Source of the DNA: an uncultured bacterium
GTDB taxonomy: Bacteria; Bacteroidota; Rhodothermia; Rhodothermales; UBA10348
Direction of reading: 5' to 3'
DNA length: 64,000 nucleotides
NCBI GenBank assembly: GCA_943788505.1
Contig: CALSQR010000002.1
Location: 186,001 to 250,000 of the forward strand
Shown here piece by piece: positions 14,410-58,091 of the stretch (position 1 is its first letter; each line of letters opens with the position of its first letter). The position numbers and the translations under genes were made by a program. The notes below the pieces were generated by a model. That model worked only from the letters and a program-made list of their open reading frames with translations. It did not search any database and was not told where the DNA came from.

Positions 14410-15024
14410 CTATGCCAGATATGCTTCGTATTTGGTACGAAAGAAATGGTCCAGCAGGGTTAACTCTTCAACGTGTGAACGACGCTTTCGGTCGCTAACT
14501 GATGACTGCCCGATACCCAGGATGCGAGATAGCCCCTCCTGATTGGCTTCTGGATAGTCCCAACGCGCATGTAGGTACTCGGCGGAGGCTTGGCTCCAGT
14601 CATCCACGACAACTAATGCAAGCGCAAGGCACACATCCATCAGCTCATCAAACGCTGGCCATGGGGTCGAGAGCGCGAGCAAGCATCTTTGTTTCACTAT
14701 CTGGTCGAACAGATACTCGGACCTTTGAAATGCATCACCATTAGATTCTGCCACAGCCTCCGACCTAAAATCTACCGTTCCAATACCGATCGCTAGTTGA
14801 AGGTCTTGACCCATTGCAACTTTGAACGCTGCGCGAATCCTGAGGGCGGTTAAAAGGGCATTTTGAGGCTCGTCAATTACAAGCTGAAAGCTATCTCCTC
14901 TAAATAATTGCCAGTCTAGTGGTTCGCTACCAAACCCATTCAAAACAGATTTGAGGGCCTGCACCCACTCTTGAGGGGTTCTGAGGCTTTTGTCGACGAT
15001 ATGTCCGGTGATCACGGCATGCAT
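14410..15024 (-). CDS. SatD-family protein (cyclase-like domain plus HTH)
   Basis: A 204-residue protein resembling the SatD family. The N-terminal part (MHAVITGHIVDKS, then WQLFRGDSFQLVI and AIGIG) resembles a nucleotidyl-cyclase-like fold, with GDS where cyclases hold a metal-binding loop. The middle carries AESNGDAFQRSE, conserved in the family. The C-terminal part contains ILGIGQSSVSDRKRR, which looks like the recognition part of a helix-turn-helix. Family members are poorly understood; a DNA-binding or nucleotide-sensing role is inference. In other genomes SatD-like genes often have a DUF3307 membrane partner, which is absent here. Three 28-bp repeats lie directly upstream and may be its own operator. 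Confidence 0.65.
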   Translation of the reverse strand: MHAVITGHIVDKSLRTPQEWVQALKSVLNGFGSEPLDWQLFRGDSFQLVIDEPQNALLTALRIRAAFKVAMGQDLQLAIGIGTVDFRSEAVAESNGDAFQRSEYLFDQIVKQRCLLALSTPWPAFDELMDVCLALALVVVDDWSQASAEYLHARWDYPEANQEGLSRILGIGQSSVSDRKRRSHVEELTLLDHFFRTKYEAYLA

Positions 15025-15031
15025 ATTACCA

Positions 15032-15115
15032 TAATCGTCTATTGGATCGATAATGTCAATTATCGTCTTAAATACCGATAAATATACTTATCGTCCGTTA
15101 TGCCGATGTGCACAA
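15032..15115. repeat. Three imperfect 28-bp direct repeats upstream of the SatD-like gene
   Basis: Units begin at 15032, 15060 and 15088. Each starts T(T/A)ATCGTC, then eight variable bases, then CGAT, usually CGATAA. This also creates two identical-geometry inverted repeats, CGATAA-N6-TTATCG, at 15048-15065 and 15076-15093. The array ends 8 bp before the SatD-like start codon (minus strand, ATG at 15024) and 16 bp past the stop of the small-subunit gene. An autoregulatory operator is the simplest reading. Confidence 0.6.
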
Positions 15116-51043: not shown

Positions 51044-51275
51044 AACCAAGTGGGGTAAAAGCGCTGGGCTGTCTCTTTGGGATAGCCTTCGCTTTACCCA
51101 TCAAAAGGTTTCAAATCACAAGCGAGTAATCTTCTGTTTCTAGGGATCCACACGCGAGAACATTCGACGGCAAGGTCAGCTGCCTTCTAGGATATTCGTG
51201 GTCTCGTTGAAAAGAAAGGATGATTTTGTGACCCGCCTGCTTACAATTGCCCGCTGGGCGACGACAGGAATCGAC

Positions 51276-51305
51276 GTTTCAGACACCGGCGTTTCAGACA
51301 CCGGC
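51276..51305. repeat. 15-bp perfect tandem duplication over the amidase stop codon
   Basis: GTTTCAGACACCGGC occurs twice without a gap. On the minus strand the unit contains the stop codon, so the gene reads …AGV-stop-NAGV-stop. Readthrough of the first stop would add only four residues. Confidence 0.8.
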
Positions 51306-52283
51306 GCCGAGGGCACTATTTACTAGGCCGTCTTTGATCCATTCTGCTAGGGTCTGCCTGTTCGATGGTTTGACCAATCTATGTTGGTCCCCTTTATGGC
51401 GGATGTTACCCAGCTCAATTAGAATGGCCGTGGGTTTCGTTTCCCGGAGAATCATCAGATTCCGAGATGCGATTTCTCCCTTGTATCCGCGGTCTGGCTG
51501 GTACGTAGCGTACTTGGCTTCCACCGTAGACCGGATACTATTCGCCAATTCACGACCGCTGTTGCTGCCTACGATGAAGTGGACATCGACCTGTGGTTCG
51601 ACTCGGTAACCGTATGAATCGACATGAAGCGAAATGACTTGCTGACTTTTGGCCGTCTTGCTATGTTTGTCATAGAGGTCATTGATGACCTTCGCGCGCG
51701 TCCGTAACCGATTTGCCTGGTTCAGAACGATTTTCTTATTCCCGATGTACGTTTCATCGTGATCAACGGGCAGATAAGTAGCATCACGAATACCATCGTT
51801 GGGATCCTGAACAATAAGATGCACAGTGGCACTTTCCTTCATCAGTTCGCGAGCCAACCGTAGCGCCGTGTCATATGCAATTTCGTCTTCGGCAATCTGT
51901 TTGCCGGCATACGTGCCCAACGTCCCAGGATCTGGGCCTCCATGTCCACCCACGATGTAGTAAACGTGGCCTTCAAGGCGATTACTTTCGATTTTTACTG
52001 TAGCTAGCTTGGCGCCAAACAGTGGCTCTGTAACCGAGCGAACCGGGATCCGATATTTTACATCCCGGCGGAGCTCATTATTGCGGCTCAGCAGGTCAGC
52101 ATTCACTTCCTTGAATTCTTTGACCGTTCCAGTCGTGGGCTCCACGCCAGATCGTCTAAGTAGGCTCCAGATACCTTCGCCTTGACGCGGGACTACTTCA
52201 GCAAAATGCTGCGCATATGCCGTCATTGACGATAGCATCAACAACAGCAGAAGCGGTCCTGTACAACGTAAAAAACGGTTCAT
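51294..52283 (-). CDS. N-acetylmuramoyl-L-alanine amidase (amidase_3 family)
   Basis: A 329-residue periplasmic peptidoglycan hydrolase. After the signal peptide (ending near AYAQ) comes a LysM-like segment (VPRQGEGIWSLLRRSGV) of about 70 residues. The zinc-amidase domain has YIVGGHGGPDPGT (first His), EDEIAYD (Glu), VISLHVDSYG (second His) and ILIELGNIRHKGD with the catalytic Glu. It cleaves the bond between MurNAc and L-Ala. In related bacteria such amidases are activated by EnvC-type proteins, and one is encoded at 60.2 kb, but a direct link here is untested. The 3' end carries the 15-bp duplication. Confidence 0.92.
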   Translation of the reverse strand: MNRFLRCTGPLLLLLMLSSMTAYAQHFAEVVPRQGEGIWSLLRRSGVEPTTGTVKEFKEVNADLLSRNNELRRDVKYRIPVRSVTEPLFGAKLATVKIESNRLEGHVYYIVGGHGGPDPGTLGTYAGKQIAEDEIAYDTALRLARELMKESATVHLIVQDPNDGIRDATYLPVDHDETYIGNKKIVLNQANRLRTRAKVINDLYDKHSKTAKSQQVISLHVDSYGYRVEPQVDVHFIVGSNSGRELANSIRSTVEAKYATYQPDRGYKGEIASRNLMILRETKPTAILIELGNIRHKGDQHRLVKPSNRQTLAEWIKDGLVNSALGAGV

Positions 52284-58023: not shown

Positions 58024-58077
58024 CTTAATAGAGCTGTGAATCTTAATAGAGCTGTGAATCTTAATAGAGCTGTGAAT
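58024..58077. repeat. Three perfect tandem 18-bp repeats between divergent genes
   Basis: CTTAATAGAGCTGTGAAT occurs three times head to tail (58024, 58042, 58060) without a mismatch. They lie between the GCS2-CBS gene (start 57929, minus) and the TPR gene (start 58092 or 58116, plus). Copy number could alter promoter spacing or regulator occupancy. Confidence 0.9.
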
Positions 58078-58091
58078 CAACCGAAACCTGC

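Follow-up and report, generated by a model that had tools for sequence, protein, structure and literature searches.

The window, by which we mean the whole 64,000-nucleotide stretch of DNA analysed, contains three units with an exact period of 28 bp at 15032–15059, 15060–15087 and 15088–15115. They lie in the interval that separates the stop codon of a same-strand upstream gene (15131) from the minus-strand ATG, at 15024, of a gene encoding a 204-aa SatD-like protein (Table 1). This periodicity agrees with the original prediction for the locus, which had also placed TTATCGTC-N8-CGAT in each unit; units 2 and 3 carry this pattern exactly, but unit 1 reads TAATCGTC, with one mismatch. Two inverted repeats of identical geometry had been described as well. 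The inverted half-sites are real, but the geometry is richer, as six half-sites of alternating ATCG and CGAT start at 15034, 15048, 15062, 15076, 15090 and 15104 and form a lattice with a strict 14-bp step (ATCG-N10-CGAT-N10 three times, 15034–15107) in which all 24 of 24 bases are exact.

Table 1. Positions of the genes, predicted promoter and palindromic units at the SatD-like locus.
Feature	Position in window	Strand	Remarks
SatD-like gene, 204 aa	14410..15024	minus	N-terminal palm (cyclase-like) domain and C-terminal HTH
Recognition helix of the HTH, residues 173-183 (QSSVSDRKRRS)	14476..14508	minus	first residues covary with half-site
Codon of residue 8	15001..15003	minus	His here, Asp in 156/159 relatives
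Predicted promoter, TTGACA-N17-GATTAT	15031..15059 (-35 15059-15054, -10 15036-15031)	minus	10/12 consensus bases
Palindromic unit 1, gene-proximal	15033..15052 (half-sites 15033-15038, 15047-15052)		overlaps predicted -10 box and spacer
Palindromic unit 2	15061..15080 (half-sites 15061-15066, 15075-15080)		
Palindromic unit 3, gene-distal	15089..15108 (half-sites 15089-15094, 15103-15108)		
Gluconate-2-dehydrogenase-subunit-3-like gene, upstream neighbour	15739-15131	minus	

When all spacer combinations from 2 to 14 were scored, the array was the top three-unit lattice of the 64-kb window (score 5.22), followed at 5.00 by a perfect tandem repeat of 18 bp at 58024. With both spacers fixed at 8, the observed score was 4.89, versus a maximum of 3.89 among 20 block-shuffled windows. 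The array is also private to the satD promoter. A 16-base pattern spanning two units occurs exactly at the array and nowhere else in the 2.75-Mb genome; no other site has 0 or 1 mismatch, and a single place has 2. This two-unit lattice was used instead of a looser palindrome search allowing 2 mismatches, which returned 160 matches per strand in the same genome versus 119 in a reversed control. The 18-bp tandem repeat itself extends from 58024 to 58078 and comprises 3.1 perfect copies of CTTAATAGAGCTGTGAAT (score 110); a perfect 15-bp tandem repeat with 2.1 copies lies at 51275–51306.

Unit 1 falls within the spacer of the predicted promoter and over its −10 box, and the ATG follows six bases further on. 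Because the start codon is so close to the −10 box, the transcript is probably leaderless. Taken alone, the promoter prediction is near chance (2 found versus 1.2 expected); the same layout is seen before orthologues.

An AlphaFold model of the encoded protein (pLDDT 95.9, pTM 0.91) bears out the cyclase-like domain and the helix-turn-helix (HTH) of the original prediction. Residues 1–122 adopt a palm fold of the cyclase, GGDEF or Y-family polymerase kind, and VIA-align superposed about 100–117 residues on the palms of GGDEF proteins, cyclases, GTP cyclohydrolase III and Y-family polymerases with Z of 9–10 and rmsd of about 2–3. In a Foldseek comparison with the PDB the top matches were mycobacterial adenylyl cyclases (best E 3.3e-3). 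The C-terminal HTH helices comprise residues 162–169 and 173–183 of the model, and at E up to 1 the profiles for sigma-70 region 4 and HTH_24 match 23 and 21, respectively, of the 28 aligned proteins. Assignment to the SatD family, which had also been proposed, holds for the orthologues, 21 of 28 of which match Pfam SatD (PF16264) at E up to 1 (best 1e-10), but not for the window protein, which has no match to this profile even at E 10 and none in Pfam and NCBIfam scans at E 0.001. We therefore use the name SatD-like; the family takes its name from Streptococcus mutans. Two palm aspartates, which we take from other palm enzymes to be metal-binding, are conserved in relatives (D8 in 156/159, D44 in 158/159). 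The window protein keeps D44 and has lost D8 (now H8), S12, R76 and G103. Any effect of nucleotides may consequently be absent in this copy, and nucleotide control of the window protein is doubtful.

We collected orthologous loci from three sources: 195 relatives queried with the window protein (36 with a match, 30 loci), named genomes (80 loci, the best 80 of 588) and a set of 394 genomes from the phylum, of which 111 had a match (79 loci). The last set excludes HTH-only partial matches and one gene too near its contig start (G458). Removal of 30 loci sharing an upstream 25-mer reduced the 189 loci to 159 non-redundant 150-bp upstream regions, and the regions upstream of 288 other long reading frames at the same loci served as controls. 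In a motif-free comparison, 132 of 159 orthologue promoters had their best self-match at a lag of 28 or 29 bp, versus 27 of 288 controls. A fixed lattice, consisting of a 6-bp half-site, a spacer of 8, a second 6-bp half-site and 8 or 9 bp between units, scored above the 99th percentile of controls in 127/159 promoters and above all 288 controls in 122. The lag was absent from 27 of the 159 and the lattice fell below threshold in 32, among them L177, a locus considered further below. Nearly all members of family f28 are also among the promoters without the array; upstream of four genes of this family (L193–L196) there is no 28-bp array, and several of these regions share a different inverted repeat, CTTTTGC ... 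GCAAAAG.

A hold-out set of 33 genes from 396 genomes of another class was tested after the rules had been fixed; it represents 33 of 34 new genomes fetched, with G458 left out, and 2 of the 33 promoters share a 25-mer with earlier ones. The 28/29-bp lag was present in 32/33 and the lattice in 29/33. Hence the suggestion that the repeats would recur upstream of other SatD-like genes survived an attempt to refute it. Four of five plasmid records (Segatella, Vibrio and two near-identical Pseudoalteromonas, not Sphingomonas) have a lag of 28, and a Kangiella locus (L062) carries the array as well; the architecture therefore extends outside the Bacteroidota. Seven pattern matches in viral contigs included no relative, and phage records gave no match.

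The letters of the half-sites differ between lineages and include TATCGG, TATCTG, TATTAC, TATTAG and TATAAG, among others; the outer TAT is nearly constant and the inner three bases vary. Particular sequences at the start of the recognition helix accompany particular half-sites: QSSVSER is found with TATCGG, QSNISE and QGRVSER with TATCTG, QGNISQG with TATTAG, QAAVSRR with TATTAC and ESSASERR with ATTCGG, and QNAVS or QNAIS mostly with TATCAC or TATCAT. For the 127 of 159 promoters above the lattice threshold, half-site distance correlated with distance over residues 173–179 after correction for palm distance (partial Mantel r 0.463, 0/2000 permutations). The reverse partials were 0.121 for the palm given the helix (40/2000) and 0.080 for the middle region (69/2000). 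In a blind scan of the aligned residues, four of the top five were helix positions (Q173 at rank 1, D178 at rank 2, S174 at rank 4 and S175 at rank 5); rank 3 went to a palm residue, L75, which counts against the operator reading. When half-sites in the hold-out set were predicted from the nearest relatives, mismatches out of 6 averaged 1.00 by helix, 1.66 by palm and 2.42 at random, and the exact half-site was obtained for 13 (helix) versus 10 (palm) of 29, a modest gap. Such covariation is expected of a protein and its own operator, and is unexpected of an unrelated regulator or of RNA hairpins. The half-site letters follow the recognition helix more closely than they follow overall relatedness, which makes it very probable that the HTH encoded by the adjacent SatD-like gene uses the array as its operator. 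The original idea that the array may show what SatD-like proteins bind is thus supported both by arrays at orthologues and by half-site/helix covariation, and from these comparisons we strongly infer that the window protein binds its array. The lineages amount to a natural library, in which a few helix residues change together with the half-site on an unchanged scaffold, and should be useful for learning HTH specificity.

The reading we consider probable is that the array is the SatD-like protein's own operator and mediates negative autoregulation, with the window copy representing an orphan autoregulator whose usual partner gene is missing, as described below. Each subunit would read one 6-bp half-site through its C-terminal HTH. 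Since the half-sites alternate in orientation every 14 bp, three dimers (six subunits) could sit side by side on the array, and their spacing suggests that binding is cooperative. With unit 1 placed across the region of the −35 and −10 boxes, its occupation would shut off the protein's own promoter. The lack of a second site in the genome is consistent with a local autoregulator. A step of 14 bp corresponds to roughly 1⅓ turns of the helix and would rotate successive half-sites by about 120 degrees; on geometric grounds, the bound protein could conceivably form a coat that winds round the DNA.

The position of the array in relatives bears on the sign of regulation. The last unit sits on the core promoter in the window and in 20 of 23 members of the Rhodothermia set, whose arrays end 7–12 bp (mostly 7–9) short of the start codon, and protein bound there should block the promoter. 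An activator site, from which the array-bound SatD-like protein recruits RNA polymerase in positive autoregulation, would instead suit those relatives, including some Flavobacteriaceae, in which the array ends 20–70 bp upstream of the start codon. TAnnTTTG boxes are present in 53 of the 127 promoters; they lie 2–4 bp inside the array end in 19 and 25–27 bp beyond it in 11, about one period apart, and the latter position would also accommodate activation. From the promoter overlap we infer repression rather than activation in the window, and the upstream positions leave room for activation in some relatives; as a general account of the array, activation is unlikely.

Binding by a different host regulator has in its favour that binding by the encoded protein is deduced from sequence. 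The half-site letters nevertheless follow the recognition helix of the adjacent gene product beyond what relatedness explains, and the array is found at no other promoter of the genome; we regard an outside regulator as very improbable. A further reading takes the palindromes as hairpins of a leader RNA, as each unit is an inverted repeat and foldable. Given a start codon about six bases past the predicted −10 box, the bulk of the array precedes the transcript in the window and its class, and hairpins need neither an exact 28/29-bp period nor half-sites that follow an HTH, so this reading deserves almost no weight. The original label "iteron-like" captures a mere resemblance, in that the repeats are short, direct and regularly spaced, and does not point to replication: true iterons of a replication origin are highly improbable for an array that lies within a 1.35-Mb contig before a palm-HTH gene, with the same architecture before SatD-like genes across genomes and nowhere else in its own.

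Autorepression by the SatD-like protein would acquire a wider role in relatives, where satD is followed by a gene for a multi-helix membrane-type protein (by model) that matches Pfam DUF3307 in 33 of 36 tested cases at E up to 0.01. This gene overlaps or abuts satD, the commonest start, in 58 of the 142 genes with the N-terminal motif, being 4 bp inside the end of satD. By profile, DUF3307 is found beside satD in 155/159 loci, and in two of the four exceptions (L027, L206) the locus is truncated by a contig end; among 396 genomes of one class, it is present in 67 of the 68 with a full-length SatD-like gene. The same promoter would therefore also drive the DUF3307 gene in nearly all relatives, and autorepression of the SatD-DUF3307 operon is the likeliest role of the array there. 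Comparison of DUF3307 with PDB folds gave no match at E up to 0.001.

The window locus has no DUF3307 partner. It and L177 are the clear orphans, and profile searches find DUF3307 nowhere in either genome. The L177 palm has lost D8, S12, R76, G103 and also D44. Among the 159 proteins, at least two of these five palm residues are missing in the window and in L177 only, save for L197, in which the palm N-terminus is out of frame and the state of D8 is not assessable; both aspartates are kept in 33/33 hold-out genes. Joint loss of the partner and of palm residues in the two clear orphans hints at the purpose of the palm, which seems to serve the DUF3307 partner. In the window, the array and the HTH persist without that partner, and with the palm site eroded, what remains would be an orphan autoregulator with an intact operator. 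Since the L177 array is below threshold, such persistence is no rule. Two further loci show the pair in other states. In a genome of the window's family (G016, L214), a DUF3307 gene with an in-frame mid-gene stop adjoins an intact SatD-like gene that has D8; this may be a partner loss in progress or an assembly error. In the window's genus (G005, L215, 1492–2190) there is a DUF3307-like gene with no SatD match by profile, and the partner may persist alone there.

Class III cyclase domains fused to LuxR-type HTHs are known, for example Rv0386, and share with the SatD-like proteins the combination of a cyclase-like domain and an HTH in one protein. SatD-like proteins differ in being much smaller, in an HTH that is of the sigma-70 region 4 or winged type by profile, in their tight pairing with DUF3307 and in their conserved operator array. 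In defence modules of the Pycsar and Panoptes-like kind, a cyclase-type protein is encoded with a multi-helix membrane protein. The membrane-type partner is a point of likeness, as is the persistence of SatD palm residues where DUF3307 persists; on the other side, there is no known defence phenotype, no fold match for DUF3307 in the PDB and no convincing PADLOC match, in that PADLOC models matched neither two DUF3307 proteins nor the window protein, and one orthologue gave a weak match to PDC-S05 (E 0.028).

The system most alike in its working is NrdR, a repressor of ribonucleotide reductase genes that is described as often controlling its own gene (PMC9110341). Like the protein proposed here, it acts as a repressor on spaced palindromes: PMC12051234 describes palindromic boxes read half per subunit, with two boxes required for high affinity, a box spacing tied to helix turns and an oligomeric state set by nucleotides. 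NrdR combines a Zn ribbon with an ATP-cone and uses two boxes whole turns apart, whereas the window has a palm, an HTH and six half-sites at 14 bp (PMC12051234). The window protein was rejected as an NrdR-type protein, as neither Zn ribbon nor ATP-cone matched in Pfam at E 10 and the model is of the palm-HTH kind.

SatD annotation appears in a Fusobacterium study (PMC10326533), and satD is reported to be the one accessory gene that is essential in S. pyogenes (PMC11323703). Such essentiality would fit a guard that silences a harmful partner, if a partner exists there. The original prediction held that SatD-like proteins have no defined operator, and we found none in the open-access literature, a scope outside which most subscription papers lie. 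On sequence grounds, the array would thus be an operator array of an HTH autoregulator in a family with no operator found described. As a speculation in which we place limited confidence, SatD-DUF3307 could be an undescribed two-part nucleotide-signalling module: the palm would make or sense a nucleotide that governs DUF3307, the HTH would fill the 14-bp lattice and restrain the operon, the palm would decay once the partner had gone, and the half that binds DNA and regulates itself could survive alone, as in the window.

A widespread and essentially unstudied pair, SatD-like and DUF3307, which occur together in 67 of 396 genomes sampled from one class, thereby gains a candidate operator, and with this defined, binding by SatD-like proteins and the effect of nucleotides on it become directly testable. 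In a single case, on a plasmid of Sphingomonas insulae (L254, 7192–14682), a SatD-like/DUF3307 pair has neighbouring genes whose annotations are nucleotide cyclase, E2-associated protein, Pycsar effector and TIR protein.
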